64,000 bases of DNA from Blastopirellula sp. J2-11 (GTDB taxonomy: Bacteria > Planctomycetota > Planctomycetia > Pirellulales > Pirellulaceae): NCBI RefSeq assembly GCF_024584705.1, contig NZ_CP097384.1, forward strand, positions 5,270,001 to 5,334,000, written 5' to 3'. The notes beneath the pieces were generated by a model. It made no database searches, had not been told where the DNA came from, and was given only the letters and a program-made list of their open reading frames with translations. How positions within the stretch are numbered: the stretch's first letter is position 1; every line of letters starts with the position of its first letter. Shown piece by piece: positions 6,525 through 46,304 of this stretch. Position numbers and translations under genes: made by a program.

Positions 6525-7385
6525 TTATGCGCCGCGGGCAGCTGCGTACATCGAACGTTCACTCTCTTCCATCGGATGCGGCGTGACGCCGTGATCCCAT
6601 GCCGGAAGCATCGCGTCGTTCTCGATGTCTTCGATCAAGTCGACGACCGAATTGATCACGCGATCAGGACGGAATGCGTAGGAGGGTAAATCTTCGGCCC
6701 GCGAACCGCCGCTGAGCGTCAACGTAGCGTAATAGCCCATCTGTACGGCGCCTAGGATATCGGTCTCCATCGTGTCGCCGATCATCACGGTTTCCCATGA
6801 GCGAACGCCGAGTTCCCATTGAGCCGAACGCATCATCACCGGGCTCGGTTTACCGACGCTAAACGCCGTCTTTCCCGTCGCTTTCTCGATGAACGAAACC
6901 GTCGCTCCACAACCGCTGCGGGTACCAGACTTGGTTGGGCAGTTGGGGTCAAGATTGGTCGCGATCAATTGCGCGCCGTCGAGCACCATCTGCACCGCCG
7001 CATCCAACATCTCCAGCGTGATCGAACGCGCTTCGCCGACGACCACATAGTCGGGCGCATGATCCACAATCGCGTAGCCATTGCGATGCAGCGCATTGTG
7101 CAATCCCCCTTCGCCGATCACGAACGCTGTGCCGCCAGGCTTTTGTTTGGCCAGAAATCGCGCGGTCGCCATCGCACAAGTAAAGATGCGATCTTCGTCG
7201 ACACCAATTCCCATGCGAAACAACTTGGCCGCGACGTCGCGCCGCGTGCGCTGACTATTGTTGGTCAGGAATAAAAAAGGGATCTGCTTCTTTTTCAGTG
7301 TTGCGATAAAGCGGTCAGCGCCGTCAATCAGCTGACTGCCGCGATAGATAACGCCATCCATGTCAATCAAAAATCCAAGGCCCAT
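6525..7385 (-). CDS. HAD-superfamily phosphatase, NagD/HAD-IIA type
   Basis: The 286-residue protein has the HAD-IIA layout: motif I DMDGVIYRG (residues 8-16, nucleophile Asp8), motif II FLTNNSQ near 40, a C2-type cap, Lys in the GKPSP segment near 178, and motif IV GDTMETDI near 200. The family dephosphorylates small sugar phosphates, nucleotides or phosphoglycolate; the substrate cannot be read from sequence. An AAGGAAAG ribosome site precedes the ATG at 7385. It converges on lysA across the inverted-repeat element and is divergent from nadA. Confidence 0.92.
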   Translation of the reverse strand: MGLGFLIDMDGVIYRGSQLIDGADRFIATLKKKQIPFLFLTNNSQRTRRDVAAKLFRMGIGVDEDRIFTCAMATARFLAKQKPGGTAFVIGEGGLHNALHRNGYAIVDHAPDYVVVGEARSITLEMLDAAVQMVLDGAQLIATNLDPNCPTKSGTRSGCGATVSFIEKATGKTAFSVGKPSPVMMRSAQWELGVRSWETVMIGDTMETDILGAVQMGYYATLTLSGGSRAEDLPSYAFRPDRVINSVVDLIEDIENDAMLPAWDHGVTPHPMEESERSMYAAARGA

Positions 7386-7811
7386 CGTTCTCTTTCCTTG
7401 TTAAGTCGAACCGGTAAGCAAAAGGTCGGACCAGACTACGTTAGGCAATTGACATGCCAAACCGACAAGGCGACCGCTCTCCACCTAATTACCATCTAAC
7501 GGATTGGTTTAGGTGAAGATGTAAGGCACTGCTTAATTCATGCGCAGTGATGACGGCGGCGTCTTCCACGTTACGAGGATGCGAGCTAGCACCGCATTTC
7601 GCGCCTTGTGCGCGGCTATCTTGCGTTTCGTTGCGCATGGGTCGCTATCATGTGCCGAGCAAGGCGTTTTGGCCTATGAAAAACTATGGGAACTAACGCA
7701 GAACTTCTCACATTGATTTCTGACAGGTTTCGCTGGCCCTACAGCACGTAGTCGCCCAGAGGTATAATTGGCTGTTTCCTTCTTACTTTCGGTAGAAAAG
7801 CAAATTGCGCC
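7386..7811. other. 426-bp divergent intergenic region, no gene
   Basis: This region separates the HAD phosphatase (minus) from nadA (plus) and must carry promoters for both. It holds a 7-bp inverted repeat CACCTAA/TTAGGTG (7482-7488 and 7509-7515) with a 20-base gap, which could be an operator or weak hairpin, and a TATAAT hexamer before nadA. I see no tRNA, small ORF with a ribosome site, or longer repeat. Confidence 0.6.
7763..7768 (+). promoter_or_regulatory. Candidate -10 element of nadA
   Basis: A perfect TATAAT lies 43 bases before the nadA ATG. The -35 region at the right spacing (about 7740) reads TACAGC, a poor match, so this is a tentative sigma-70-type promoter with an atypical or activator-dependent -35. 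Confidence 0.4.
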
Positions 7812-8948
7812 ATGACGACGACGCTTGAGACTCCGGCATTCGACTTTGCTCCTTATCGCTCGCTCAGCAATGAAGAGCTGACAGATCGCATCAACGCGGT
7901 CCGCCAAAAGCAGGGAAGTCGCCTGATGATCTTGGGGCATCACTATCAGCAGGATGAGGTGATTGCACAGTCCGACTTGCGCGGCGACAGTTATCAGTTG
8001 AGCAAGATGGCGGCAGACAGCGGCGATTGTCGCCACATTGTGTTCTGCGGCGTTCACTTTATGGCCGAGACCGCAGACATCTTAGCAAATCGTCCTGAGA
8101 AGATCGCCGCTCGCGACGGGCATCGCGTCGACGTGATTTTGCCCGACATGGCGGCCGGTTGTTCGATGGCCGATATGGCGGCGATCGATCAGGTCGAAAA
8201 CGCGTGGGAAGATCTGGGCGAACTGATCGACACCAACGACATCACGCCGGTCACCTACATCAATTCGGCCGCCAGCTTAAAGTCGTTCGTCGGTCGACAT
8301 GGAGGCATCGTCTGCACGTCAAGCAACGCTGCGTCGGTTTTGAAATGGGCGTTCGCACGCACCAGTCGCGTTCTCTTCTTCCCCGATCAACATCTCGGCC
8401 GCAACACGGCGCAGACCATGGGGATCCCCAACGATCAGATGCCGGTCTGGAACCCGTACGACTTGGAGTTTGGCGGAAATACCGCCGAGGCGATTCGCAA
8501 CTCGAAAGTGATCCTGTGGAAAGGACACTGCAGCGTTCATCAGATGTTCAAGAAGGAACATGTCGCGGCGTTTCGGCGCGATTACCCCGGAATACAGATT
8601 TTGGTCCATCCCGAATGCATGCAGGAAGTGAACGAAATCGCCGACGTGTCCGGCTCGACCGGAAAAATTATCGAGACCGTTCGCAATGCGCCTGCCGGAA
8701 CCAAATGGGCGATCGGCACCGAACTCCATCTGGTGAACCGTCTGAAGCAAGAGCACCCTGAACAAGAGATTCATTTTCTCTCGCCGGTCGTCTGCATGTG
8801 CGCCACAATGTACCGGATCGACCTGGCGCATCTTTGCTGGAGTCTGGAAAATCTGGACGCAGGCAGTCCGGTAAATGTGGTGCGCGTGGATGACGAGACT
8901 TCGAAGTGGTCGCGTACCGCGCTCGAAAGAATGCTGAGCGTCACGTAA
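7812..8948 (+). CDS. nadA: Quinolinate synthase
   Basis: NadA condenses iminoaspartate with dihydroxyacetone phosphate to give quinolinate, the precursor of NAD, using a labile 4Fe-4S cluster held by three cysteines. The 378-residue product shows ILGHHYQQDEVIAQSD near residue 37, FCGVHFMAETADIL near 77, a candidate cysteine in CTSSNA, FFPDQHLGRN, the HPEC motif, and the final cysteines in VVCMCATM. Length is normal. It is a single plus-strand gene with more than 200 bases on either side. nadB and nadC are not in the window. Confidence 0.96.
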   Translation: MTTTLETPAFDFAPYRSLSNEELTDRINAVRQKQGSRLMILGHHYQQDEVIAQSDLRGDSYQLSKMAADSGDCRHIVFCGVHFMAETADILANRPEKIAARDGHRVDVILPDMAAGCSMADMAAIDQVENAWEDLGELIDTNDITPVTYINSAASLKSFVGRHGGIVCTSSNAASVLKWAFARTSRVLFFPDQHLGRNTAQTMGIPNDQMPVWNPYDLEFGGNTAEAIRNSKVILWKGHCSVHQMFKKEHVAAFRRDYPGIQILVHPECMQEVNEIADVSGSTGKIIETVRNAPAGTKWAIGTELHLVNRLKQEHPEQEIHFLSPVVCMCATMYRIDLAHLCWSLENLDAGSPVNVVRVDDETSKWSRTALERMLSVT

Positions 8949-9154
8949 TTCTCGCGCTGGCGCAGCAGCGCCGAGACAGATAGAATTCGTACAATCGGCA
9001 CGACCTGCCCCAAGGCTCGTAAACATTCTCCGCTGGAAATCCTCTGCGGCATTGCGCGCGTGATGGATGCCAGGCGAGTGTTAGAGTTGCCGAGGTTTCT
9101 ACGTATCGGCCGCTGGGCCGAACGGCAACTTTCACTTCGTCAGCGGATGCCGCC

Positions 9155-10279
9155 ATGTCGTCCCGTATTGCGATCATCGCCGTTCTGGTTCTGGTTTTCG
9201 GCTCGCTCTTGGTCTATAGCCAGTTGCGACACGAACCGCTCAAGGTCTCCGGATATATCGAAGCGGAGGATATCCGACTCGGTTCGCGCGTCGGCGGACG
9301 GATCGCCGAAGTATTAGCCGACGAAGGAGACCACGTCCAAAAAGGCCAGGTCCTCGTTCGCTTGGAACCGTTTGATCTCAACGAGCAACTGGCCGCCGCC
9401 AAAGCCGAGCAAGACGATAAGCAGGCGGTTCTCAGCAAACTAAAGTCGGGCTATCGCGTGGAAGAAGTCGCCCAAGCGAAAGCCCAAGTGGATCAATTGA
9501 CGGCACGGCTGAAGAAGCTAGTCGATGGCCCGCGAAAACAGGAAATTGACGCGGCGAGAGCAGAGCTAAAAATGGCCTCTTCCCAACTGGAACTGGCCCA
9601 AGCCAATTTCAAACGCGAAAAAGAGGTCTTCGAGAAAGGCGCCGGCACGCAGGAGAAGATTGATCGCGTCGCCGATCTCTTGCGTGAAGCCGAAAGTTCC
9701 TCGGTCGTGAGGGAGAACAACCTTTCGCTATTGGTCGAAGGAACGCGCCAGGAAGAAATTGACGAAGCTCGCGCGGCGCTCGACGAGGCGACGCAGCAGT
9801 ATGAGTTGATGAAATCCGGCTTTCGCACCGAAGATATCGCCCAAGCCGCAGCCGCCGTCGCCGCCGCAACCGCGAATGTGGCCGCGATTCAACAGCGGAT
9901 TGAAGAGCTAAATATCGTCGCGCCCAATGACGCGATCGTCGAAGCGCTCGAGTTAGAGCCCGGCGACTTGATGGCGCCCAATGCGCCGATGCTGACGTTG
10001 ATCGATCCCAACAAACTGTGGGTGCGCGCTTACGTTCCTGAAAACCATCTGAATATCGAACTTGGCCAGAAGTTGCCAATCACCGTCGATAGCTTTGACG
10101 GCGAGTTTCAGGGAGAAATTACCTTTATCGCACGGAACGCCGAGTTTACGCCTAACAATGTGCAAACGCCGGAAGAACGTTCGAAGCAGGTCTTTCGCAT
10201 CAAAGTGACCTTACTCGACGGACGTGACAAACTGCGATCGGGCATGGCGGCTGACGTTTGGCTCGAGCCGAGAAAGTAA
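9155..10279 (+). CDS. HlyD-family membrane-fusion (adaptor) protein
   Basis: The 374-residue protein has one N-terminal membrane anchor (residues 5-22), then the split lipoyl/barrel-sandwich halves (VSGYIEAEDIRLGSRVGGRI near 30; IVAPNDAIVEAL near 252). A long alpha-helical hairpin lies between them, about residues 80-245 and unusually rich in Ala, Glu and Gln. A beta-barrel domain with LRSGMAADVWLEP ends the protein. It should bridge the inner-membrane ABC exporter encoded four bases downstream to the cell envelope, like E. coli YbhG beside YbhFSR. No TolC-like gene is nearby and the cargo is unknown. Confidence 0.92.
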   Translation: MSSRIAIIAVLVLVFGSLLVYSQLRHEPLKVSGYIEAEDIRLGSRVGGRIAEVLADEGDHVQKGQVLVRLEPFDLNEQLAAAKAEQDDKQAVLSKLKSGYRVEEVAQAKAQVDQLTARLKKLVDGPRKQEIDAARAELKMASSQLELAQANFKREKEVFEKGAGTQEKIDRVADLLREAESSSVVRENNLSLLVEGTRQEEIDEARAALDEATQQYELMKSGFRTEDIAQAAAAVAAATANVAAIQQRIEELNIVAPNDAIVEALELEPGDLMAPNAPMLTLIDPNKLWVRAYVPENHLNIELGQKLPITVDSFDGEFQGEITFIARNAEFTPNNVQTPEERSKQVFRIKVTLLDGRDKLRSGMAADVWLEPRK

Positions 10280-33113: not shown

Positions 33114-36100
33114 ATGACTCGAATCGTACCAGTCCCGACTACCCGCGTAAGCGACGGCAACTTGCATTCTCGTTTGCTGTCGCAATTAGCGGCAAGTCAA
33201 GCCAACCTGTTCAGCCTGCAAAACCAGCTCAGCACGGGCCGTCGGCTGTTGGCGCCTAGCGACGATGCGCCGGCCGCGATTCGCGGCATCACGTTGCAGT
33301 CGTTGATCGAACGGAAGACGCAGATCAGCGTCAATCTGTCGACCAGCCAGTCGTACCTGGCCGCGACCGATACGGCGATGGCCGGCGCCGCCGATTTGTT
33401 GGCCGAAATGCGTGGTCTGGCCGTCACGATGGTCGATTCGACAGCAACCGATACCGAAGTCGCGGCGGCGAGTCAAACTTTCCAGAACGCGCTGCAGCAA
33501 TTCGTGGATATTGGAAATCGGCAGTTCCGCGGTCGCTACCTCTTCGGCGGCTCTAATACCACGACGACTCCGTTTACCATCAAAGACGGCCTGGTCCAAT
33601 ACAACGGCAACACGAATAGCCTGAACAGCTTTGCCGATATCGATTTGCTCTTTGATACGACCGTGAACGGCAACGACGCTTTCGGTGCGATCTCGCCGGA
33701 AGTCAAAAGTCAGATCGATCTGAATCCCGTACTAACCAAAAATACAAAGCTCTCCAATCTGCGCGGCGGCGGTGGAATTGCATCCGGCAGCTTTGTCATT
33801 TCCGATGGCGTCAATCCAGTCACAATTGACATTCGCTCGGCCGAAACTGTCGGTGACGTCATCAACTTGATTGAGAAGAACCCGCCGCCGGGACGAACAA
33901 TCACTGCGCGAATCGACAACAACAGTCTGATCGTTGATATAGACGATGCTGGCGGCGGCAACTTGACGATCCGCGAAACCGGCGGAAGTCATGTCGCCGC
34001 CCAACTAGGGATCCTGAAAACCAACGGCAACGGCGTCAATCCGATTGAAGGCGCTGATCTGAATCCGATTATTACGGCGACCACCAAGCTGTCAGACATT
34101 TTGGGGTCCAAGTCGCAAGCAGTCGTTTCTTACGCCGGCGCCAATAACGACATCGTCCTGAACGCCAAAAATAACGGCGCCGATGCAAACGGCGTCACGC
34201 TGCAATTGGTCAATGATGATCTGCTGCAAGCCAAGCCGGGGCTGACCAAAGGGAACGAAGTCGTCACGCTGGCCGAAGATTTGCAACGTGCGCAGACGAC
34301 GCTCGACCTGGATGGGGCCGGCAACAGTTTGTTGCTCACCGCAAACTCGACCGATGGCAGTCTGGACGGCGCACGAATCGTCTTCGATTCTACCGGCGAC
34401 ATCGGCGACACTGCCGTGATCGGTCCAACTACCGTCGTCAACGGCGTGAAGACAATCACCGTCCAGATTGACGATACCGATGAAACTTCGCTGCAATCAC
34501 TGTCGGACGCGTTCATCGCCGATGGGCGATTCTCGGTTGGATTTGATACGTCCACCGGCGAATCATTCAACGCAGCGAGCCCGGTTCTCGCCACCAATAG
34601 CGGCAACGCCTATACGACCTACGTTCAACAAGATGGCGTGAAAGCACGCGCCGCGGTCCCACTCTCCGGCGGTAACAACGACTTAATCTTGACCGCCAAC
34701 CAAGCGGGATTTGATTTTAACAACGTCAACATCGTGATCGACGCCTCGGGAGACATCGGCAACACGGCGACGGCGACTTACACCGACGATGGCTCTACAC
34801 GCACGTTGACGCTCGCCGTCGACGACAGCGATGAGACTTCGCTGCAAACCTTGATGAACGCGATCATCGCGGAAGGATCGTTCTCGGTTCGCCCCGATAG
34901 CTCCAACGGCAATACGTTTAACCCCAACTCGTTCGTTTCGGCGACCGACGATGGTTCGATCGGAAACACCGGCAATAGCGGCGGCGACTCCAAGACGATT
35001 TTTGCCCGCGTTGACGCCGATCGCACCAACGCCAACCAGCTTGTTTCGGCGCTGAATAACAACGCAAAATTTAGCGAACTGTATACAGCCGAGATTGACG
35101 AACACGATACGGTTTCGGATTTTCAACGCGGAACGGGGGTTGTCGATCTCTCGGTGATCGCTGAGTTCCAAGGAGGAAGCGGCGCCAATTTTGACGCTTC
35201 GTCTGGGCTGCAAATCATCAACGGCGGCGATCCGCAAATTCTTAAGTTTGATGACGCGAAGACAGTCGAGGATCTGCTGAACGTATTTAACGGCGCCGGT
35301 TTGGGCGTCCTGGCCGAAATCAATAGTGCCGGAAACGGCATCAACGTTCGCTCGGTCGTAAGCGGCGGCGATTTCACCATCGGTGAGAACGGCGGCACGA
35401 CTGCGTCCCAGCTAGGCCTGCGTACTTTTAATGAATCTACGCCGCTTAATTCGCTCAACTACGGCCTGGGAGTTCACGCGACTGAAGGGACCGATTTCAC
35501 GATAACTCGCAATGACGGCCAGCAGTTGGAGATTGATGTCTCGAGTGCTAAAACCGTGGGCGACGTTCTCAATCTGATCAACAACCATCCCGACAATCAA
35601 GACGGTAGCCCGGTTGTCGCGCGACTCTCTGACTTTGGCAACGGCATCGAACTGGTCGACGACAATCCGGCCGGCGTTGGTCGTTTGACAATTGAACGAG
35701 ATATTTTGAGTTCGGCGATCATCGATCTTGGGTTGATGCCGGCAGGTGAAACGGTGACAACCGTTTCTGATTCGCCAACCGCAACAGCGGCGACCGCGAC
35801 AGTCGAATTTTCTCCGCCTACAAACGAAAATAACGCGATTCAGATCAGCGCCAACTTACCAGGCACGACGTTTAACAACGTGCAGGTCGAATTCGTCAAC
35901 TCGGCCGCTTCCGGCGACCAGGCGATCGTGAACTATGATCCGAATACGAAAAAGTTGACGATCGATGTTGATCCCGCGGCGACCACTGCAAATACGGTCA
36001 TCGCGGCGATCAACGCTGAAGGAACCTTCTCAGCAGATACGGCGCTTCAGAGCGATCCCACTAACAATGGCGAAGGATTGATCGTTCAAACCGGCGTGAT

Positions 36101-36845
36101 CACTTCGACCAACGGCGGAACCCCCATCGCTGACGCCGAACCGTCCGCCGCCTCGGTCAGCTTTGCGGCCCCGGAAGATCTGAACACCGCGTTCACGTTG
36201 GAGTCGCTTTATCCGGGCACCGCTCATAACGATGTCCAGATCGTCTTCACGGATACGCTGTCGTCGGGATCGCCGACCGCCGTTTACAACTCGGGGTCAA
36301 AAACGCTGACCCTCTCGATCGACGCCGGCGTAACGACAACATCGGAGATCGTCAACGCGATCAACCTCGAAGGGACATTCCACTCTCAACTTGATCGCAG
36401 CGTCGACATCACAAACGACGGGACAGGCGCCGTTTCGGCGACAGGGACAGTCGGCACCACATCTGGCGGCACAGCCGAAGTGATGTCTGGAAAAGACGTC
36501 AACCCGCGAGAAACCAAAAGCGTTTTCAACACGCTGATCAAATTAAACGAGGCGATCGTCGCACGCGACTACGTGCAGATCAGTCGCCTGGTTGATTCGC
36601 TGGACACGGATCTCTCCAGACTCAGCTTTTCACGTGGCGAACTCGGCGCCCGTTCGCAGAACGTCGATTTGATGAAGACGCGACTTGAAGACGACATGGT
36701 CGAATTGGATGCGAACTTGTCGACCGAGATCGAGGTCGACTTCGTCAAAGCGGCCTCTGATTTCGCCGCGCAACAAGCTTCGTACCAGGCGTCGCTGCAA
36801 ACGATCGGACAGATTTATCAATTGTCGCTGCTCGACTATATCTAA
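33114..36845 (+). CDS. flgL: Flagellar hook-associated protein 3 (FlgL), giant form
   Basis: The ends are plainly FlgL. The N-terminus TTRVSDGNLHSRLLSQLAAS with NQLSTGRRLLAPSDDAPAA and the C-terminus FSRGELGARSQNVDLMKTR and FVKAASDFAAQQASYQASLQ are diagnostic. At 1243 residues it is about four times the usual 300. Residues about 190-1115 are insertion: flagellin-IN-like segments (ETVGDVINLIE near 247; KTVGDVLNLIN near 815) and four clear plus one degenerate copies of a repeat shared with flagellin and FliD, starting near residues 344, 403, 520, 905 and 1023. Asp, Asn, Gly and Thr dominate and cysteine is absent. It forms the second junction ring. Confidence 0.93.
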   Translation: MTRIVPVPTTRVSDGNLHSRLLSQLAASQANLFSLQNQLSTGRRLLAPSDDAPAAIRGITLQSLIERKTQISVNLSTSQSYLAATDTAMAGAADLLAEMRGLAVTMVDSTATDTEVAAASQTFQNALQQFVDIGNRQFRGRYLFGGSNTTTTPFTIKDGLVQYNGNTNSLNSFADIDLLFDTTVNGNDAFGAISPEVKSQIDLNPVLTKNTKLSNLRGGGGIASGSFVISDGVNPVTIDIRSAETVGDVINLIEKNPPPGRTITARIDNNSLIVDIDDAGGGNLTIRETGGSHVAAQLGILKTNGNGVNPIEGADLNPIITATTKLSDILGSKSQAVVSYAGANNDIVLNAKNNGADANGVTLQLVNDDLLQAKPGLTKGNEVVTLAEDLQRAQTTLDLDGAGNSLLLTANSTDGSLDGARIVFDSTGDIGDTAVIGPTTVVNGVKTITVQIDDTDETSLQSLSDAFIADGRFSVGFDTSTGESFNAASPVLATNSGNAYTTYVQQDGVKARAAVPLSGGNNDLILTANQAGFDFNNVNIVIDASGDIGNTATATYTDDGSTRTLTLAVDDSDETSLQTLMNAIIAEGSFSVRPDSSNGNTFNPNSFVSATDDGSIGNTGNSGGDSKTIFARVDADRTNANQLVSALNNNAKFSELYTAEIDEHDTVSDFQRGTGVVDLSVIAEFQGGSGANFDASSGLQIINGGDPQILKFDDAKTVEDLLNVFNGAGLGVLAEINSAGNGINVRSVVSGGDFTIGENGGTTASQLGLRTFNESTPLNSLNYGLGVHATEGTDFTITRNDGQQLEIDVSSAKTVGDVLNLINNHPDNQDGSPVVARLSDFGNGIELVDDNPAGVGRLTIERDILSSAIIDLGLMPAGETVTTVSDSPTATAATATVEFSPPTNENNAIQISANLPGTTFNNVQVEFVNSAASGDQAIVNYDPNTKKLTIDVDPAATTANTVIAAINAEGTFSADTALQSDPTNNGEGLIVQTGVITSTNGGTPIADAEPSAASVSFAAPEDLNTAFTLESLYPGTAHNDVQIVFTDTLSSGSPTAVYNSGSKTLTLSIDAGVTTTSEIVNAINLEGTFHSQLDRSVDITNDGTGAVSATGTVGTTSGGTAEVMSGKDVNPRETKSVFNTLIKLNEAIVARDYVQISRLVDSLDTDLSRLSFSRGELGARSQNVDLMKTRLEDDMVELDANLSTEIEVDFVKAASDFAAQQASYQASLQTIGQIYQLSLLDYI
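34143..36460 (+). repeat. FlgL share of the flagellar surface repeat
   Basis: Copies begin near 34143 (degenerate), 34320, 34671, 35826 and 36180. Each has an opening beta-type strand (LTAN/ISAN), a short FNNVQ-like turn, an Asp-rich loop, a KTLTLSID-like strand and a helix with IVNAIN before a final F-x-x. The 34320 and 34671 copies are close to each other (DETSLQ-L, FSV), pointing to local duplication. Boundaries were set by eye. Confidence 0.7.
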
Positions 36846-36924
36846 TCTGGAATACGTAAGAAAACGTGGCGCCGCACGTTCTGCGACGGATATTCGGATT
36901 TTATGGATTCGTCCTGGTTCAGTC

Positions 36925-36932
36925 GCCGATAA
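36925..36932 (+). promoter_or_regulatory. FliA-like -10 box before fliW
   Basis: GCCGATAA is identical to the sigma-28 (FliA) -10 consensus and lies 75 bases before the fliW ATG. The -35 position, 15 bases upstream, reads GATT rather than TAAA, so the promoter is only a candidate. Confidence 0.4.
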
Positions 36933-37007
36933 ATCAGAATGTCAGAAATTAGGTCGCTACTAGGGCGATCATGCCAGCATTGCATCACTGATCGAGATGT
37001 TTCGACC

Positions 37008-37448
37008 ATGGATATCTATACGGCTCGCTTCGGAAAGCTTGAAATCGTGGATGAGGACGTAATCCTGTTCGCGGACGGTTTGATCGGCTTCGAAAGTCTG
37101 GTTAACTGGATTCTACTTTCCGATGAGAAATCGGAGGACCTTGGCTGGTTGCAATCACTAGAGCAACCGGAAGTGGCGTTGGCCGTCGTCAGCCCGCGAC
37201 GCTATGCCCCCGAATATCGGGTTCGTCTCGAGAAAGAAGAAGTTTCGCCGATTCGGCTGACCGCCGACGACGAGGTTTTCGTACTTACCATCGTCAGCAA
37301 GCACGAAGATTCGCTGACGGTCAATCTTCGCGCACCGGTCGTGATCAACCTAACCAAGCAACTTGGACGGCAAATTGTGACGTCGGACGATCAGCCGCTG
37401 CAGTACGAGATCCAAGGCGGCGCTTCTTATTACCGCAAGAGCGCCTAG
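37008..37448 (+). CDS. fliW: Flagellar assembly factor FliW
   Basis: FliW binds CsrA and flagellin alternately: free flagellin releases CsrA, which then represses flagellin translation. The 146-residue product has the N-terminal DEDVILFADGLIGFES segment near residue 15, FxxLQSLEQPEVALAVVSP near 45, and VNLRAPVVINLTKQLGRQIV near 105, all typical. The ATG at 37008 gives the family length; an upstream in-frame ATG at 36939 is unlikely. It lies 248 bases before csrA in the conserved fliW-csrA order, with flagellin following. Confidence 0.95.
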   Translation: MDIYTARFGKLEIVDEDVILFADGLIGFESLVNWILLSDEKSEDLGWLQSLEQPEVALAVVSPRRYAPEYRVRLEKEEVSPIRLTADDEVFVLTIVSKHEDSLTVNLRAPVVINLTKQLGRQIVTSDDQPLQYEIQGGASYYRKSA

Positions 37449-37544
37449 TTCGCTCGAATCTGCAGGCAGAATTCCGGCGGTACATTCGATTCCGCCGACA
37501 GAAGTCGACCATTGCGGCGGATATTGATTGGGCGTCAGCCAAAG

Positions 37545-37552
37545 TCCGATAG
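37545..37552 (+). promoter_or_regulatory. FliA-like -10 box before csrA
   Basis: TCCGATAG resembles the sigma-28 -10 consensus GCCGATAA at six of eight bases and lies 144 bases before csrA. GATT sits 15 bases upstream, the same arrangement as before fliW. The identical octamer is the core of the 13-bp repeat at 21207-21357. Confidence 0.3.
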
Positions 37553-37696
37553 ATGCTACTGCGGCCGGCGCCGCGACAGCGATGCTATCCCACGCTTGGG
37601 CCGCTAGCTGACTCCCGCTTAAAATAAATACGCCCTACCGTTCTCCGGCGTCGCCGTTAAACGGATTAGAACAGCGCACCGAGGAAGGAGCCTGAT

Positions 37697-37918
37697 ATGC
37701 TCGTCTTGTCGAGGCATCGTGACGAAAGCATCATGATCGGCGATAACATCGTCATCACCATCGTCGATATTCGCGGCGACAAAGTTCGTCTTGGCATCGC
37801 CGCACCGCAAGACATCCCCGTACATCGTCAAGAAGTGTACGAAGCGATTCAACGCGAAAACCAGCAAGCGTCTCGTTTGCAGCCGAACGAAGCCGCCGCT
37901 CTCCGTAAGACGAAGTAG
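37697..37918 (+). CDS. csrA: Carbon storage regulator CsrA
   Basis: The 73-residue product begins [20 protein letters not shown] and continues [24 protein letters not shown], with the RNA-binding Leu4/Arg6 edge and the Arg in VHR of the second surface. CsrA dimers bind GGA motifs in mRNA leaders and here should block flagellin translation until FliW captures them. An AGGAAGGAG ribosome site precedes the start. It sits between fliW and the flagellin gene. Confidence 0.97.
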
Positions 37919-38172
37919 TTTTGCGCACTTGCCGCGCAACGAACTACTCCTCCCTTTCGTCTTACCCGTCGTAATCCGCTCAATGGCGCCTGGCCCGGCG
38001 CCTTTCTTTGTCGCTGCTGCGACGTCGGATTATCCCTCGAAGCTTCGTAAAATGCGCTGCGGAAACGCGCAGCCAAACTAGGCGAAGTCGCCGTTTTCGA
38101 TGCTCTGTAACGGTCGTAACGCTAAGGCCTATTAGGTTCCCTAATCGCGCAAGGAAAACTTCATCAATCACC

Positions 38173-38201
38173 TCAAGCACGCCAGTAATCATGTCCGATA
38201 G
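38173..38201 (+). promoter_or_regulatory. Candidate sigma-28 promoter of the flagellin gene
   Basis: TCAAG at 38173-38177 and TCCGATAG at 38194-38201 are 16 bases apart and resemble the FliA elements TAAA and GCCGATAA at near-normal spacing. The bases 38192-38205 (TGTCCGATAGTCCT) match the 13-bp tandem repeat of 21207-21357 over 14 positions. Confidence 0.4.
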
Positions 38202-38401
38202 TCCTCGATAGATGATCGTGCATAGGATCGGTCGAGCGCTGGAGAGTACCACTTTTACCAGAGCGAAATTGCAGGTTGACCTGCAGGGGCAAGAAGCCTC
38301 CTCAAATGACAAGTAGATAGGTTTGAATAGGGCTGCGTTTGCAGCCGACCGTTCCGATTCAATTGACTCCCCAGGCGTCGGACGGGCTTCAAAGTAGTCC
38401 C

Positions 38402-38425
38402 TGGATTTAGGAGGGGTGACTCCCA
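38402..38425 (+). promoter_or_regulatory. Flagellin ribosome site with candidate CsrA sites
   Basis: The Shine-Dalgarno AGGAGG (38409-38414) lies 11 bases before the ATG. Its GGA, and a second GGA in TGGATTT just upstream (38403-38405), are possible CsrA contacts. GGAG (38410-38413) can pair with CTCC (38420-38423), so the ribosome site can be held in a hairpin. Placement beside fliW-csrA makes CsrA control of this leader likely. Confidence 0.5.
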
Positions 38426-41400
38426 ATGACCCGCATCAATACAAACGTTAGTTCACTTGTTGCTCAAAAGAACTTGGGCCGCTCGAACGCGGACCTGAAC
38501 ACGACCCTGACCCGTCTTAGCACCGGTCTCCGCATCAACAGCGGTAAAGACGATCCGGCCGGTTTGATCGCCAGCGAAGCGCTTCGTAGCGATATCACGA
38601 GCGTCGAAAAAGCGATCACCAATAGCGAACGCGCCAATCAGTTGATCGCGACGGCCGACAGCGCCCTCGGTCAGGTCAGCTCGTTGCTGAACGACATTCG
38701 CGGGTTGATCTCGGAAGCGGCGAATACCGGCGCCCTCAGTGACGAACAAATCGCGGCGAATCAGCTGCAAATCGACTCGTCACTCGAAGCGATTGACCGT
38801 ATCGCTCAGGTCACCTCGTTCCAGGGCAAACGTCTGCTCGACGGTAACTTGGACTTCATCACGCAGAACGTCAACAGCTCGGCGATCGAAGGTCTGCGTA
38901 TCGATCAAGCCAACTTCGGCACGCAAAGCTCGATCGGCGTTAAAGTCAACGTCGTTCAGCAAGCGACCCGTGGTACGCTGAACTACGGTTTCGGTGCGGT
39001 CGCCGACGATCTGGTTCTAGAAATCGGCGGCGCCAACGGTACCGAAGCGTTCAACTTCGCCAAGGGTTCGACGATCGAAGAAATCGCCTCGGCCGTGAAT
39101 CTGGTCTCGGACGCCACCGGCGTCGAAGCGCTTCTGGAAACGGCCGCGACCAAGGGCGAACTGACCGTCAGCAGCTTTGGCACGGACAATGACATCTTGC
39201 TGACGGCCAACGAAGCCGGGTTCGATCCAGGCGACGTCCGCATCAAGTACAGCAAGGGAACCAGCAGCACAACCACCGCCAGCTACACCGCTCCGGTTGG
39301 CGCTGATCCCGGCAAGTTGGAAGTGACGCTCGGCGTTTCGGACTATGAAGCGGCCTCGTTGGTGGTTGACACCGTCGGCGATAACAACGCCTTCACTCTG
39401 ACCGCCAACGAAGCGGGCGCCGACTACAACGGCACCCAAGTCGTCTTCGCCGACGGCGCCGAACTGGGTGACGAATCGGCCTCGTACGATGCGTCGACCA
39501 AGACGTTGACGATCACCAAGAACGCCGCATCGAACGCCGATGCGATCGTCGCCGCGATCAACAACGCCACAGAACGGACCGCTGCGTCGTTCACCACCTC
39601 CGGCGCCGCGAACGCTTCTCTCACCGTGACGTCGAAGATCTTGGGTGACGAAACGAACAGCGTCGGCATCGAGTATGTCGACAACGCCTCACTCACGGGA
39701 GGCGCGCTCGTCTCGTTTGACGAAGCCAACAACAAGCTGGTGGTCCAGATCGACACCGGCGTTTCGACCGGTACCGAAGTTCGCGACGCGATCAACGCTC
39801 AAGTCGGCGACCTGTTCTCGGCCGCTTACGCGACGGGTAACGATGGTTCCGGCGCTGTGGCAACTGGTGATATCGCGGGTAGTTCAACTTTCGCCGGCGG
39901 CACGACGACAGCTCGTTCGCAAGCCTCGGTGTTGGTCGAAGCAGGTAATGCTGACGCTTCGATCCATGTTCGCGCTCTGACCGGCGGCACGGAGATCGAT
40001 GGCGTTCAGCTGATCTATTCGACCTCAGGCGCCGTGGCCAAAGGCGCTGAAACGGCCGCTTATGACGCCGACGCCAATACCTTGACGGTTCAGATCAACG
40101 TCGCGTCGACCGGCGCCGAAGTCGTCACGGCCATTGACTCCCTGACCGGACTGTTCGACGCCCGAAACGCTCTCGGAAGCGATGGTTCTGGCGTTGTTCA
40201 AGTGGGCGACACGACCGGCACGACGCTGTTTATCGGCGGCGACCGCCAGAAGACCACCGATCTGTTCACCGCCGCAGTGGTGGAAACCACAGGCTATGGC
40301 GCCGGAGCCGGCATTGTCGCCACCACCGGAGCCTACGGGTCGACCGCGTCGGGCGGCATCACGGGGGGTGACATTGTCGCGACGGCGAATGACGTCATCG
40401 AGGCGATCAACGCCGCCACTGGCAACAACAAGGTTACTGCTTCGCTGGCCGCTGGTAACGACGGACACGATACGGTCACCGAGTTTACGAACTACGCCTA
40501 TAGCGGCGTCGCCGAGCAGAACACCAGTCTGCAGTTCCTGTCGCCGGAAGATTCGCCGAACGTTCGCTTTGTCTCGAACGCCGACACCAGCCTGAGCATT
40601 GACACGACGACCGACCCGCGTGTCGAAGGCCTGTCACAGGCGATCATTCAGAACGCTGACGCCAACGGCACTTTCTCCATCACCGCCAAGCTGAAGGGCA
40701 CCGACTACGACGGTTACACGATCAGCTTCGTTGACAACAACGACTTGGCCGGCGGTGGCGACGAATACGCCGTGCTCGACAAAGAAGCCAAGACGCTTGT
40801 CTTGAACATCCAGGATGGCGTTTCGACGGCTGAAGACGCGATCAACGCGATCAACAACGACGCATACGTCAGCCAGTTCTTCGAGGCCGAGAACTTCGGT
40901 TCCAGCGACGGAACGGACGCGCTCGACATCAACGAACTAACCATTCCGGCCGGCACCGACGGCGGCCTGGTTAGCGAAGGCACATTGATCGTCAACCTCG
41001 AAACCGACGCAGACGGAAACGTCAAGACGACGGCGGACGACCTGATCGCCTTCTTCGATGATCCCAGCGCGTTCATTTCGGATCCCACCGAAGCCGCCAA
41101 CACGTTGGCGTACTTGCAGGATCGCGGCATCAGCGTCACTAACGTCAGCGGCAGCGACGGCAGCGGCATCCTGTCCGCCACGACCGAAGACATCACCTTC
41201 GCGACCAGCGGAACCGAACTGGAAGACGCCCAGGCGTCAGGTACGACCTATTCGGTGAACGGCGTCAATGCTCAGCTGAGCTTCACGGCGATCAACTCTG
41301 GCGCCGACTACGACAACGTCAAGGTCCAGTTCGTGAACGACGCTACGGTCACCGCAGGTGTGGATGAACGCGGCGAATACGATGCGGCCAACAAGACGCT

Positions 41401-42319
41401 GACCTTCTACATCGAGGAAGGTCTTACGACCGCAGCCGATATCGCGGACATCTTCGATAGTGCGGACGGCAACTATGACGAAAGCCTATCGTTGCTGTTC
41501 AGCGCAACCGCCAGCGGCGGCGCCACCGTCACCACCGACGACACGGCGACGCTGACCGGCGGCGTGATCGACACTGGTTCGACCGACGGAGCCGCGTTGC
41601 TCGGCAACTCGGACCTGGAAAATACCGGTCTGTCATTCCAAGCGACCAACTTTGGCGCCGACTCGTTCGTCAGCGTGAAGGCCCTCACCGGCACCTTCAA
41701 TCTGACCGATCAAAGCGGCAACACCAATGTGGATCGTTCGTCGGGTACGGACGTTGATGTTCGCATCAACGGTATTCAAGCGATCGGCGACGGTTTGAAA
41801 GCCTCGATCAACACTTCTTCGCTTGACCTGAGCTTCTCGCTCGGCGAAAACGTCGAAGATGACTCCAGCTTTGAATTCGAGATCGTCGGCGGCGGAGCCT
41901 TGTTCCAACTCGGTCCGGACGTGGTCAGCAATCAGCAAGCCCGTCTTGGTATCCAAAGCGTCAGCACCGCCACCTTGGGCGGCGTCAGCGGACGTTTGTT
42001 CGAGCTTCGCTCGGGCGGTAGCAAGAGCTTGTCGGAAGATGTCGGCGGAGCCGCCAAGGTTGTGGACGAAGTCATCTCGGTGGTGACCTCGCTTCGCGGT
42101 CGATTGGGCGCCTTCCAGAAGACGACCTTGGACTCGAATATCTACTCGTTGAACGATACCCTGGCCAACCTGACCGAAGCCGAAAGCTCGATCCGTGACG
42201 CCGACTTCGCTGCGGAATCGGCCAAACTGACGCGAGCTCAGATTCTCGTCCAGGCCGGCACCAACACGTTGGGCATCGCCAACCAGAACCCGCAAAACGT
42301 GCTCAGCCTGCTCCGATAA
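38426..42319 (+). CDS. fliC: Flagellin, giant form
   Basis: The conserved ends are textbook flagellin. The N-terminus is MTRINTNVSSLVAQKNLGRS, with TLTRLSTGLRINSGKDDPAG near residue 28 and FQGKRLLDG near 132. The C-terminus has SLRGRLGAFQKTTLDSNI near 1213 and ends LGIANQNPQNVLSLLR. At 1297 residues it is two to four times the usual size. A flagellin-IN-like part (about 190-250) is followed by six copies of a 75-95 residue repeat, near residues 254, 319, 395, 508, 745 and 947. The middle would be the exposed D2/D3 region of the filament. It is acidic and has no cysteine that I noticed. Confidence 0.96.
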   Translation: MTRINTNVSSLVAQKNLGRSNADLNTTLTRLSTGLRINSGKDDPAGLIASEALRSDITSVEKAITNSERANQLIATADSALGQVSSLLNDIRGLISEAANTGALSDEQIAANQLQIDSSLEAIDRIAQVTSFQGKRLLDGNLDFITQNVNSSAIEGLRIDQANFGTQSSIGVKVNVVQQATRGTLNYGFGAVADDLVLEIGGANGTEAFNFAKGSTIEEIASAVNLVSDATGVEALLETAATKGELTVSSFGTDNDILLTANEAGFDPGDVRIKYSKGTSSTTTASYTAPVGADPGKLEVTLGVSDYEAASLVVDTVGDNNAFTLTANEAGADYNGTQVVFADGAELGDESASYDASTKTLTITKNAASNADAIVAAINNATERTAASFTTSGAANASLTVTSKILGDETNSVGIEYVDNASLTGGALVSFDEANNKLVVQIDTGVSTGTEVRDAINAQVGDLFSAAYATGNDGSGAVATGDIAGSSTFAGGTTTARSQASVLVEAGNADASIHVRALTGGTEIDGVQLIYSTSGAVAKGAETAAYDADANTLTVQINVASTGAEVVTAIDSLTGLFDARNALGSDGSGVVQVGDTTGTTLFIGGDRQKTTDLFTAAVVETTGYGAGAGIVATTGAYGSTASGGITGGDIVATANDVIEAINAATGNNKVTASLAAGNDGHDTVTEFTNYAYSGVAEQNTSLQFLSPEDSPNVRFVSNADTSLSIDTTTDPRVEGLSQAIIQNADANGTFSITAKLKGTDYDGYTISFVDNNDLAGGGDEYAVLDKEAKTLVLNIQDGVSTAEDAINAINNDAYVSQFFEAENFGSSDGTDALDINELTIPAGTDGGLVSEGTLIVNLETDADGNVKTTADDLIAFFDDPSAFISDPTEAANTLAYLQDRGISVTNVSGSDGSGILSATTEDITFATSGTELEDAQASGTTYSVNGVNAQLSFTAINSGADYDNVKVQFVNDATVTAGVDERGEYDAANKTLTFYIEEGLTTAADIADIFDSADGNYDESLSLLFSATASGGATVTTDDTATLTGGVIDTGSTDGAALLGNSDLENTGLSFQATNFGADSFVSVKALTGTFNLTDQSGNTNVDRSSGTDVDVRINGIQAIGDGLKASINTSSLDLSFSLGENVEDDSSFEFEIVGGGALFQLGPDVVSNQQARLGIQSVSTATLGGVSGRLFELRSGGSKSLSEDVGGAAKVVDEVISVVTSLRGRLGAFQKTTLDSNIYSLNDTLANLTEAESSIRDADFAAESAKLTRAQILVQAGTNTLGIANQNPQNVLSLLR
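39185..41530 (+). repeat. Flagellin share of the flagellar surface repeat
   Basis: Copies begin near 39185, 39380, 39608, 39947, 40658 and 41264. The best-kept parts are an LTAN-EAG opening, a YDN/YDG turn, a Y-D-A-x-x-KTLT strand and a helix reading xxAINx. Several copies end in DGSGxV (GNDGSGAV, GSDGSGVV). The Phe and Ala spacing matches copies in FlgL and FliD. Boundaries were set by eye. Confidence 0.75.
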
Positions 42320-42345
42320 CATTCGGGCTGAATACGCCAAGCTAC

Positions 42346-42382
42346 AAAAGCCTTCGCCATCTTTGGCGGAGGCTTTTTTTTT
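42346..42382 (+). terminator. Intrinsic terminator after flagellin
   Basis: AAAAGCCTTCGCCA pairs with TGGCGGAGGCTTTT around a short loop, followed by nine T. It lies 27 bases after the flagellin stop and should make the flagellin mRNA a single-gene transcript. Confidence 0.95.
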
Positions 42383-42438
42383 GGTTGATCGGCTCCAACT
42401 ACCTAATCGGAATAAGCTGGAGATTTTACCGCCGTTTG

Positions 42439-42446
42439 GTCGATAA
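42439..42446 (+). promoter_or_regulatory. Weak FliA-like -10 box before fliD
   Basis: GTCGATAA matches the sigma-28 -10 consensus at seven of eight bases and lies 75 bases before fliD, after the flagellin terminator, so fliD needs a promoter here. No matching -35 was found at the right distance. Confidence 0.3.
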
Positions 42447-42521
42447 AGGATGATGACGCTATCTAAACATTGACGTTAATGCAGGCCGCGCGGGCCGCCT
42501 GAGAAAGCGACGATTTCCCCC

Positions 42522-45500
42522 ATGGCTGGGATTAGCAGCAGCACCGGCTTAATATCCGGCATCAACATTACCGATACGGTAAAGCAACTGCTTTCTATCG
42601 AAGCGCGTCCTCGCGACTTGCTGATTTCGCGCACAGCCATCGTCTCGGACGAGCAAGGTGCGCTCAGCAAGGTCACAGCGGCGATTCTGAGTCTGCAGTT
42701 TTCCGCCAAAGCGCTTGCCAAGCCATCGATCTTCAATGCCCGCACTGCGGTGACGAGCAATGCTACCGCGTTGACGGCGACGGTAACCGGTACGCCGCGC
42801 ATCGGCGTCACGCAATTGACTCCTGTGCGGACGGCACAGTCTCAGCAGTACCTCAGCTCTGGGGTCGCTTCGCTTACCGAATCGCTGTCGGCGGGCTCGA
42901 TATCGATCAGCTCAAGTCCTCGATTGGACCAGGGAATCGATCTCAATCGATTGAACGGCGGCGAAGGCGTTGGTCCCGGTAAGATCAAAATCACCGACCG
43001 GGCAGGGGACAGCGGTACAATCGATCTGCGTTACGCTACCACGATTGACGACGTGCTAGCTGCGATCAACGCCAATGACGACATCGACGTGACCGCGACG
43101 ATCGAGGGAGACCGAATCAAGCTGACCGACAACACCGGTCAAACGACCAGCAACCTAGTCGTCAAAGAGCTGTCAGGCGGATCCACCGCCGCCGACCTCG
43201 GCCTGCGCGACGTCAACGTCGCCGCCAGCAGCTACGTTGGCAATGACATTCTCTCGCTCCATAGCGAAACGCGACTCAGTTCGCTTCGAGATGGCGCCGG
43301 AATTCGCTTGAGCAGCGATCTGGACGATCTGACGATCGCATTTCGCGACGGCACGACAAAAAATATCGGCTTGCGTCAGGGCGCCAAACCAGAAGACTTC
43401 GCTACCGCTTCCACCGCGACGTTCGACTCCAAGTTCAGCATTACGGCCAACAATGCCGGCGCCGAATACGAAGGGGTCGCCGTCATTTTCGAGAACAACG
43501 GTTCGATCACCCAAGGCAACGAAACGGTCGTCTACGACGATCTCGCCAAGACCGTCACCGTACAAATTGCCGAAGGAAGCACGACCGCATCCGATGTGAT
43601 CAGCGCGATCAATAACGACGCTAACGCGGGTCTCTACTTCACCGCGGCGACGGTTGACGGCGGAACCGGCGGCGGACTGATTGACTCGATCGACACCGCG
43701 ATCACCTCAGGCGGCACGGCCTTATCGACGGCCGTTACGACGGCGGCGAACGCTAACGCCAGCATCGAGATCAGCGCCATCAACGCCGGCGCCGAATACG
43801 ACGACGTCCAGATCCTGTTTGTCGACGATCCAGGCGTCACTCAAGGGAACGAGCTCGTAGAATATGACGACAGCGATCCCTTCAACAAGACGCTGACGGT
43901 CCGCATCAAAGCCGGCGAGACCACCGCGGATGACGTTGTCGCTACAATTGGAAGTGATCCGCTTGTCAGCCCGCTATTTTCCGCTGCGAACGCGTCGGGA
44001 AGCAACGGCTCTGGGCTGATCGACGTCACTGACACCGGCACGACAACGGGAGGTGAACAAAACGCGGTCGGCATCTCGACCGCACAAGCGGTTGACGGAG
44101 TCGTCAAACTTACCGCCAAGCAATTGGGGGGAGAGTACGACAACGTCACCCTCCGCTATGTCGACGATCCCGCCGTGACCGCTGGAAACGAAGTCGTCCA
44201 ATACGACGATAGTGATCCCGATAACATCACGCTCACCGTGCGGATTCAAGCTGGCGGCACGACGGCCGACAATGTCATCACGGCGATCAACAACAACGCG
44301 ACGACTTCCGCACGGTTCACCGCGGCCACCGCAGTCGGCGGAAACGGCGACCGAATCGTCGACACTAACAGCACCGCGCTGACCACGGGAGGCGCAGCGC
44401 GTGAAGAGCGTTCGCCGCAAACTCTGGGCGACCTACTCACCATCTTCAACGAAATCGACCCGACGCGGCTGCAAGCCCAAATTTCGTCCGATGGCGACCG
44501 AATTGAATTGATCGATCTCTCCACCGACAACGGCGGCTCCTTTTCAGTCAGCAGTTTTGGCGATGGGCATGCGGCGGAAGATCTGGGCATCGCCTTCTCT
44601 ACCACCAGCGACACCATCTCCAGCGGGCGCTATGTCGGAGGACTCAATTCCAAATTAATTAGTTCGCTCAACGGCGGACAAGGTTTGGATCTGGGAGAGA
44701 TCAAGGTGACCGACCGCAGCGGCGCCTCGGCGACGATCGATCTATCTGGCGCTGAAACGGTCCAAGATATCTTGACCGCGTTGAACGATTCCGGTCTCGG
44801 TATCGAAGCGGAATACAACAGTTCTGGCAACGGGATCACCCTCCGCGACACGACGGGGCAATTTTTCAGCAACTTCAAAGTTGAGAATACCGGCGCGACA
44901 AACTCGGCGGATCTGCTGAACATCGCCCAATCTTCAGCGAAAACCAAGGTCGAATCAGGTTCGTTGCATTTCCAATACGTCAGCGAACAGACCGAACTCA
45001 GTTCGCTAAACGGCGGGAGCGGCATTCCCAAAGGCAAATTCCTGGTCCGTGACAGCGCCGGCGGCGCTCGCGTTTTTGATCTGTCGGACGACAGCATCCA
45101 AACGCTCGGGGATCTCATTGATACGATCAATGGTCAAACCGGCGTCAAAGTGAAAGCACAGATCAACGACACCGGCGACGGGATAAAAATCGTCGATCAA
45201 GCAGGCGGATCGGGCGAGCTCCGTATTCAGGACTCAGGCACGTCGCAAACAGGGACCGCATTGGGGATCGTCGGAACCGGGGCCGTCGCCGAAGGAGAAT
45301 CCAAGCAGAGTCTCTCAGGCTCGTTTAACAAGGTCGTTCAAATCGAGGCCGGCGATACGATCACCGACGTGATCACCAAGATCAACGACCTGGACGCCGG
45401 ATTCTCGGCGAACGTGTTCGATTATGGCGCCGGCTCCGAACGTTATCGGATCTCGTTGGTTTCGGACAAAACTGGCAACGATGGAGCCTTTCAGATCGAC

Positions 45501-46304
45501 TCGTTGAGTTCAAGTTTTGAATTTGACGAAACGGTGCGTGGTCAAGACGCGCTGCTGTTATTTGGATCCAACACGAACGGATCGGCCGGGATTCTGACCA
45601 CCTCATCGACGAACACGTTTACGGGGGTCGTCGAAGGGGTAAGCGTGACGATCAAAGAAGCGACGAACACGCCGATCAACGTTACGATTTCTGACTCGGA
45701 CAGTTCGCTTGTCACCGCCGCAAATGCGTTTGTCACGCAGTACAACGCGCTGGTGGATTTGATGGACGAATACACGGCGTTTAACGAAGCGGACAGTTCG
45801 ACCGGCATTCTGTTCGGCTCGAACGTAGCGAATCGCATCGACTCGGAGCTGAACGAGATTCTTACGCGGCGCTACCCGAGCCTCGGCAGCGTTCAATCGC
45901 TGGAACAACTTGGCTTTAGCTTTAACGGCGAGACCGGCAAAATGTCGCTCGACGAATTGAAGTTGAAGTTGAAGTACGCGGAGGATCCCGATGCGGTCGA
46001 AGATTTCTTCACCAAAGAACAAACGATCGGCGGAGAAACGAAGCAACTCGGTTTTGCGAAAAAGTTTGACGATCTCATGGAATCGTTTGCAGGCGCCGGC
46101 AGATCATTGTTAATTAGTCGCATCGAAACTCTTCAATCCAAAATCGATCTCAATCAGTCACGAATTGACACCTGGAATGAGAAGTTGGAAAAGAGGCAAG
46201 AAGTCTTGCTGAACAAGTTCTACGATTTGGAGACGACCCTGGCCGGCATCCAATCGAACCTGTCTTACCTGGACGCGATTCAGCCGATTACGTTTCCCGA
46301 ATAG
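42522..46304 (+). CDS. fliD: Flagellar filament cap protein FliD, giant form
   Basis: The N-terminus (SSTGLISGINITDTVKQLLSIEARP, with a conserved GI-x-D-x-V-x-x-LL pattern) and the C-terminus (LISRIETLQSKIDLNQSRID, then LNKFYDLETTLAGIQSNLSYL) are FliD. At 1260 residues it is more than twice the usual 450-550. The middle holds flagellin-IN-like motifs (TIDDVLAAINAND near 176; ETVQDILTALNDSG near 745; QTLGDLIDTINGQ near 860) and three copies of the repeat shared with FlgL and flagellin, near residues 302, 410 and 524. FliD caps the growing filament. No strong ribosome site is visible before this ATG. Confidence 0.94.
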   Translation: MAGISSSTGLISGINITDTVKQLLSIEARPRDLLISRTAIVSDEQGALSKVTAAILSLQFSAKALAKPSIFNARTAVTSNATALTATVTGTPRIGVTQLTPVRTAQSQQYLSSGVASLTESLSAGSISISSSPRLDQGIDLNRLNGGEGVGPGKIKITDRAGDSGTIDLRYATTIDDVLAAINANDDIDVTATIEGDRIKLTDNTGQTTSNLVVKELSGGSTAADLGLRDVNVAASSYVGNDILSLHSETRLSSLRDGAGIRLSSDLDDLTIAFRDGTTKNIGLRQGAKPEDFATASTATFDSKFSITANNAGAEYEGVAVIFENNGSITQGNETVVYDDLAKTVTVQIAEGSTTASDVISAINNDANAGLYFTAATVDGGTGGGLIDSIDTAITSGGTALSTAVTTAANANASIEISAINAGAEYDDVQILFVDDPGVTQGNELVEYDDSDPFNKTLTVRIKAGETTADDVVATIGSDPLVSPLFSAANASGSNGSGLIDVTDTGTTTGGEQNAVGISTAQAVDGVVKLTAKQLGGEYDNVTLRYVDDPAVTAGNEVVQYDDSDPDNITLTVRIQAGGTTADNVITAINNNATTSARFTAATAVGGNGDRIVDTNSTALTTGGAAREERSPQTLGDLLTIFNEIDPTRLQAQISSDGDRIELIDLSTDNGGSFSVSSFGDGHAAEDLGIAFSTTSDTISSGRYVGGLNSKLISSLNGGQGLDLGEIKVTDRSGASATIDLSGAETVQDILTALNDSGLGIEAEYNSSGNGITLRDTTGQFFSNFKVENTGATNSADLLNIAQSSAKTKVESGSLHFQYVSEQTELSSLNGGSGIPKGKFLVRDSAGGARVFDLSDDSIQTLGDLIDTINGQTGVKVKAQINDTGDGIKIVDQAGGSGELRIQDSGTSQTGTALGIVGTGAVAEGESKQSLSGSFNKVVQIEAGDTITDVITKINDLDAGFSANVFDYGAGSERYRISLVSDKTGNDGAFQIDSLSSSFEFDETVRGQDALLLFGSNTNGSAGILTTSSTNTFTGVVEGVSVTIKEATNTPINVTISDSDSSLVTAANAFVTQYNALVDLMDEYTAFNEADSSTGILFGSNVANRIDSELNEILTRRYPSLGSVQSLEQLGFSFNGETGKMSLDELKLKLKYAEDPDAVEDFFTKEQTIGGETKQLGFAKKFDDLMESFAGAGRSLLISRIETLQSKIDLNQSRIDTWNEKLEKRQEVLLNKFYDLETTLAGIQSNLSYLDAIQPITFPE
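43425..44360 (+). repeat. FliD share of the flagellar surface repeat
   Basis: Three copies begin near 43425, 43749 and 44091 and are the most regular set. Each shows an AGAEY- or GGEYDN-type turn, a V-x-x-GNE-x-V-x-YDD segment, a TVTVQI- or TLTVRI-type strand, G-x-TTA-x-DV and a final F-x-AA. They are separated by short Gly/Thr linkers containing TGG. Confidence 0.8.

Follow-up and report, generated by a model that had tools for sequence, protein, structure and literature searches.

Three axial proteins of the flagellum, those of the junction (FlgL), the filament (flagellin) and the cap (FliD), are encoded close together in Blastopirellula sp. J2-11, and each has a long, repetitive middle. 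Is this one domain present in all three, and if so, how did it come to be shared? We addressed the question in a window of 64,000 nt (the whole stretch of DNA that was analysed) from the host genome, which is a single contig of 6.43 Mb. The genes flgL (33114-36845, 1243 aa), fliC (38426-42319, 1297 aa) and fliD (42522-46304, 1260 aa) lie where they had originally been placed and have the expected terminal domains. The order of the locus is flgA, flgH, flgI, a rod-binding gene, flgN, flgK, flgL, fliW, a small frame (37697-37918) that we take to be csrA-like, fliC, fliD, and fliS. The FliD of the window shares 95% identity (best segment) with that of Blastopirellula marina DSM 3645, also of the order Pirellulales. 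PHROG families of unknown function match the ends of flagellin (phrog_16088, 8.3e-33) and of FlgL (phrog_28924, 7.2e-13), so flagellin-like proteins are present in some records of viruses or prophages.

One repeat unit in FlgL, flagellin, and FliD

Profiles built from the copies of each protein detected the other two in every direction (whole-protein E-values): the profile from the three FliD copies found flagellin at 1.3e-55 and FlgL at 2.1e-24, that from the FliC copies found FliD at 6.1e-52 and FlgL at 2.4e-30, and that from the FlgL copies found FliC at 5.4e-38 and FliD at 5.8e-21. The search of FlgL and flagellin with the FliD copies was the one that could have refuted a common unit, and both proteins stood far above the shuffled background (1000 shuffled proteins; top scores of 8.0, 8.3, and 9.0 bits with the three profiles). 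The window's FlgK was listed by two profiles, at E-values of 0.028 and 0.073, and was unlisted with the FliD profile; the best score among 34 FlgK proteins of the fetched sets (some genomes having been fetched twice) was 7.1 bits; FlgK thus lacks the unit, as the original prediction held. The predicted number of copies was right for FliD, which has three full units. Flagellin, for which six had been counted, has five full units and the N-terminal half of another (residues 252-289); in FlgL the four clear copies are full units, and the copy taken as degenerate is the N-terminal half of a split unit whose C-terminal half is found at residues 608-662 (see below). The units, all on the forward strand (+), are as follows (residues in parentheses):

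34131..34277, +, FlgL outer unit, N-terminal half (340-388; the copy earlier called degenerate)
34305..34553, +, FlgL nested unit 1 (398-480), the additional copy seen in locus L072 and in the genus of the window
34662..34904, +, FlgL nested unit 2 (517-597), aligned with the one nested unit seen in relatives
34932..35099, +, FlgL outer unit, C-terminal half (608-662)
35817..36047, +, FlgL unit (902-978)
36171..36401, +, FlgL unit (1020-1096)
39179..39292, +, flagellin, N-terminal half of a unit (about 252-289); possible C-terminal half near 40370-40450 (weak)
39368..39601, +, flagellin unit (315-392)
39599..39838, +, flagellin unit (393-471)
39938..40177, +, flagellin unit (505-584)
40649..40900, +, flagellin unit (742-825)
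41252..41518, +, flagellin last unit (943-1031), belonging to the class closest to the FliD units
43239..43406, +, FliD IN-type host domain, stretch preceding the units (bounds judged by eye)
43410..43661, +, FliD unit 1 (297-380)
43740..44000, +, FliD unit 2 (407-493), the modelled one
44082..44339, +, FliD unit 3 (521-606)
44394..44606, +, FliD IN-type host domain, stretch following the units (bounds judged by eye)

The copies are old at the DNA level: no tandem repeats were found above threshold, and the only similarity reported between the genes consists of stretches of 24-33 nt at 64-85% identity. The genome as a whole contains 20 unit matches at E ≤ 0.01, 15 of them in flgL, fliC, and fliD and five in a second flagellin elsewhere on the chromosome. 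This second giant flagellin (1188 aa; L050:5737-9300, near 2.93 Mb), far from the flagellar cluster, has four full units and a half.

Predicted fold and kinship with the Flagellin_IN motif

A model of FliD unit 2, made from 110 aligned units (pLDDT 89.1, pTM 0.78), has strands at 10-14, 25-30, 40-44, and 52-57, a helix at 64-73, and a strand at 81-85; the unit is accordingly described here as a domain of about 85 residues with a predicted beta-beta-beta-beta-alpha-beta fold. No Pfam family matched the units over its cut-off. When the 110 units were aligned with 298 IN repeats by hhalign, unit columns 44-79 were matched (Prob 81.5, E 1.1e-5, score 30.4), compared with scores of at most 14.0 for 59 column shuffles and 12.1 for the reversed control; a smaller comparison of this type gave a Prob of only 15.2. 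Since these columns cover strand 4, the helix, and strand 5, the C-terminal half of the unit is, as judged from this alignment, a relative of the Flagellin_IN motif, and the N-terminal half is an addition. The Pfam model itself (PF07196, 55 positions) found five of 76 units at E ≤ 0.1 (best 0.015), below its cut-off, and its matches in the window's flagellin (198-250) and FliD (730-776) both lie outside the units. Like the unit, Flagellin_IN is a short motif repeated in several axial proteins (FlgK, FlgL, FliC, and FliD of the relatives have it), but the unit differs in its extra three-stranded N-terminal half and in being itself nested. The unit is acidic, yet this is not specific to it, the outer part of FlgK also having a pI of 4.05.

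Units nested within units

In FlgL, the two outer pieces (340-388 and 608-662) match complementary stretches of the FliD profile (3-44 and 44-82), the C-terminal half beginning 220 residues further on, and two whole units stand between them. By sequence, the whole units sit inside an older unit, at its beta3-beta4 hairpin. A model of FlgL 312-672 (12 rows; pLDDT 85.6, pTM 0.84) has strands in both half-units, and the two outer halves would pair into one domain. The intermediate states are found in relatives. We aligned 34 of 40 FlgL frames (six were dropped as repeats) and classed them by eye: two rows, from one genome, have no unit; nine have one intact unit; 18 (17 genomes) have a unit cut at the hairpin by one whole unit; four have it cut by two; and one row is too incomplete to class. 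Among the rows with two nested units, the extra copy lies upstream in the window and L072 and downstream in L060 and L076, so the double nesting probably arose by two separate duplications.

FliD offers a second series. In 12 aligned FliD proteins the units are located between the hairpin and the helix of an IN-type domain; the site is empty in L063, from another family of the order, and holds one, two, or three units in the others. The FliD units fill a loop of the IN-type domain, again giving domains within domains. For flagellin, weak half-matches suggest a split unit like that of FlgL.

The living genera thereby keep a readable record of how an outer domain grew: first a site lacking the unit, then a single domain, then a domain inside another, and finally duplicates. 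Such a record makes it possible to test how giant flagellins fold with tandem or split domains, a matter left open for Oceanospirillales in the accessible text of PMC6248924, and whether junction, filament, and cap need matching surfaces.

The unit sits in the variable middle of FlgL, of flagellin and, in some genera, of FliD, and its positions recur in other genera. The conserved ends of these proteins make the polymer core, so units added at loops would extend outward, and their addition could thicken the shell while export and assembly are left undisturbed; a coat of this kind might serve attachment, stability, or protection of the filament. Junction, filament, and cap might also present one continuous surface, as the original prediction proposed. 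It is unlikely, in our judgement, that the units are instead neutral filler, with a variable middle that accepts any folded insert and a copy number that drifts without any coat role. Copy number does vary between relatives, gene by gene, and filler would suit both the FliD proteins of relatives, presumably functional with anything from no unit to three, and the genome whose FlgL has none. However, the fold and the nested positions are kept at about 30-70% identity between genera, which by argument, if not by experiment, goes beyond what filler would lead one to expect.

Distribution among genomes and loci

The unit occurs mainly in the order Pirellulales. Among relatives, 40 of 60 genomes (the host genome included) have units at 1e-3; a draw from the phylum gave four of 294 genomes at 1e-6, all four of Pirellulales; and a draw from the class, with a deeper profile, gave 72 of 297 at 1e-4, eight of which are outside the order. 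The best match of seven of these eight genomes falls in open frames of 2,094-8,800 aa; that of the eighth (G587) falls in a frame of 609 aa that by eye is flagellin-like. Within Pirellulales, too, two genomes carry units in giant frames, of 7050 and 6861 aa, so the units are not purely flagellar; the best matches in giant frames have E-values from 1.6e-20 to 3.1e-5. Distant versions of the unit, single or few, are seen in giant planctomycete open frames (L150:2503-18999; L179-L188), and the scanned part of the L150 frame contains 23 RTX calcium-binding stretches.

These giant frames raise the idea that the unit is generic, a mobile module belonging to the large surface proteins of planctomycetes, and that it landed independently in the flagellar genes and has no common flagellar history or role there. 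We find this quite unlikely: all 20 matches in the host genome fall in FlgL, FliD, and the two flagellins, Pirellulales account for 64 of the 72 genomes found positive in the class draw, and against independent landings stand both the conservation of positions between genera and the way in which FliD units track one class of flagellin unit (see below).

In 80 loci, kept from 181 confirmed stretches of one FliD-based scan, at least one full unit was found in 12 of 13 complete FlgL proteins, 22 of 36 FliC, 17 of 74 FliD, and none of eight FlgK; here and in the presence counts, a full unit covers at least 56 profile positions, which lets in an occasional half-unit (the window's FlgL counts five). 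All three proteins have units in four of the 12 loci in which FlgL, FliC, and FliD are complete. By presence in flagellin and FliD, 12 loci have units in flagellin and not in FliD, three in FliD and not in flagellin, nine in both, and eight in neither. In genome G052, two flagellins of 1038 and 1052 aa (L056:3124-6237 and 6631-9786) stand side by side and have their units arranged alike, apparently through a recent whole-gene duplication.

Spread of the unit between genes

The original prediction had the domain spreading by gene conversion among adjacent genes. We compared 118 full units (score > 35, at least 61 profile positions) from the window and 20 fetched stretches, representing 20 genomes. 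Units of different genes share 30.7% identity when both come from one genome (295 pairs) and 31.6% when they come from different genera (3571 pairs); if each genus is represented by a single genome, the values are 31.3% (168 pairs) and 31.9% (2063 pairs). For 94 of the 98 units that were scored, the best match in the same gene of another genus exceeds the best match in another gene at home (means 53.7% vs 38.7%).

The unit trees cluster by gene (19 changes, against a mean of 77.3 when shuffled; 21 against 51.2 in a second tree). Beyond this their resolution is poor, and FliD does not form a single clade; in one tree, all 36 FliD rows fall outside a branch of 59 FlgL and 55 FliC rows (SH-aLRT 94). 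A link between two of the genes was seen in a count of nearest units over 193 units (score > 30), made after removal of a duplicate flagellin and of 11 loci that repeated the same genomes or the genus of the window: for 36 of 39 FliD units, which are interrelated and do not count as 39 independent cases, the nearest non-FliD unit is the last unit of a flagellin, although such last units are only 35 of the 154. The last unit of the flagellin at home ranks first for two of 22 FliD units, its median rank being 11 of 35, which makes the relation an old one.

Gene conversion that spreads the unit and keeps its copies alike would account for three adjoining genes with a unit in common, and for the resemblance of FliD units to one class of flagellin unit, but it is highly improbable, since it would make the units of different genes more alike within a genome, which they are not, and since neither the 94 of 98 units closest to their own gene elsewhere, nor the low rank of the home flagellin's last unit, nor the lack of long DNA identity between the genes agrees with it.

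An old transfer between genes, relating the FliD units to the last flagellin unit, is likely from these comparisons. The direction from flagellin to FliD is favoured by the 12 loci with units in flagellin only, against three in FliD only; the latter, in which FliD has units and the adjacent flagellin has none, speak against a simple transfer in that direction. The spread between genes would have been rare and ancient, with the FliD unit derived from the last unit of the neighbouring flagellin gene, or from a common source with it, and vertical descent would have followed. Taken as a whole, we consider it probable that the units are a surface domain of Pirellulales flagella, nested, with a C-terminal half akin to the IN motif, that spread from gene to gene rarely and long ago and was then inherited vertically.

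Comparison with known systems

Giant flagellins of more than 1000 aa grow by domain duplication, with Planctomycetes among the lineages named in the accessible text of PMC6248924, and flagellin diversity is high in Planctomycetes according to the accessible part of PMC7018530. Some giant flagellins have duplicated DE regions; as far as the accessible text of PMC6248924 goes, such regions are described only in flagellins of Oceanospirillales and related gammaproteobacteria, and FliD is unmentioned. Another precedent is the FliD of Pseudomonas aeruginosa, whose head domains, in the accessible part of PMC5072837, are similar to domains of FlgK and flagellin, head domain 2 being a loop insertion in head domain 1. 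There, too, one domain fold occurs in different axial proteins, but the likeness is one of fold (14-17% identity, one copy each, in that same part of PMC5072837), whereas the unit is detectable by sequence, multi-copy, and recursive. FliD head domain 2 and flagellin D2 were unlisted among the PDB matches, whether for the unit or for the FlgL region, an absence that excludes nothing.

The claim that a unit shared across axial proteins is undescribed therefore holds in part. Shared folds of FliD, FlgK, and flagellin have been published (PMC5072837, accessible part), and the IN motif is common to four axial proteins; in a literature search of partial coverage, with most subscription papers outside it, we found no publication that describes this unit or nesting of this kind. 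On the sequence evidence, the locus holds a real homologous domain common to junction, filament, and cap proteins, and the steps of its nesting are recorded in an unusual way.

A possible relation to phage tail sheaths

Several weak results point to the outer domain of phage tail sheaths (Phage_sheath_domII, PF17481; 3lml, a sheath protein of Listeria) as a possible distant homologue of the unit, in sequence as well as in fold. PF17481 matched four of 76 units at E ≤ 0.1 (best 0.0088), below its cut-off of 31.4 bits, and the unrelated HMA family also matched four of 76 (best 0.0014); one PF17481 match, in the unit array of genome G262, reached 22.3 bits. The sheath domain resembles the unit also in being an added domain outside a tubular polymer, as the accessible part of PMC9230969 describes it. 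Tentatively, and with the odds somewhat against it, the unit could have come from the outer domain of phage tail sheaths and of virion proteins related to them, or from a direct common ancestor with it, and have been recruited as a modular flagellar coat that spread from flagellin to the cap and grew recursively at one hairpin. If the link were true, two classes of tubular machines would be joined at the level of their decorations.

A second repeat family

FlgL and FliD have in common a further IN-type repeat family, of about 105 residues (blastp 2.2e-13, and alignment), which is absent from the original prediction. Its copies are located at:

33726-34046, 35097-35420, and 35445-35768, in FlgL
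42918-43220, 44613-44918, and 44937-45260, in FliD

The consensus of this second family is LNGGxG...TIDLSxAxTVxDVLxxIN.
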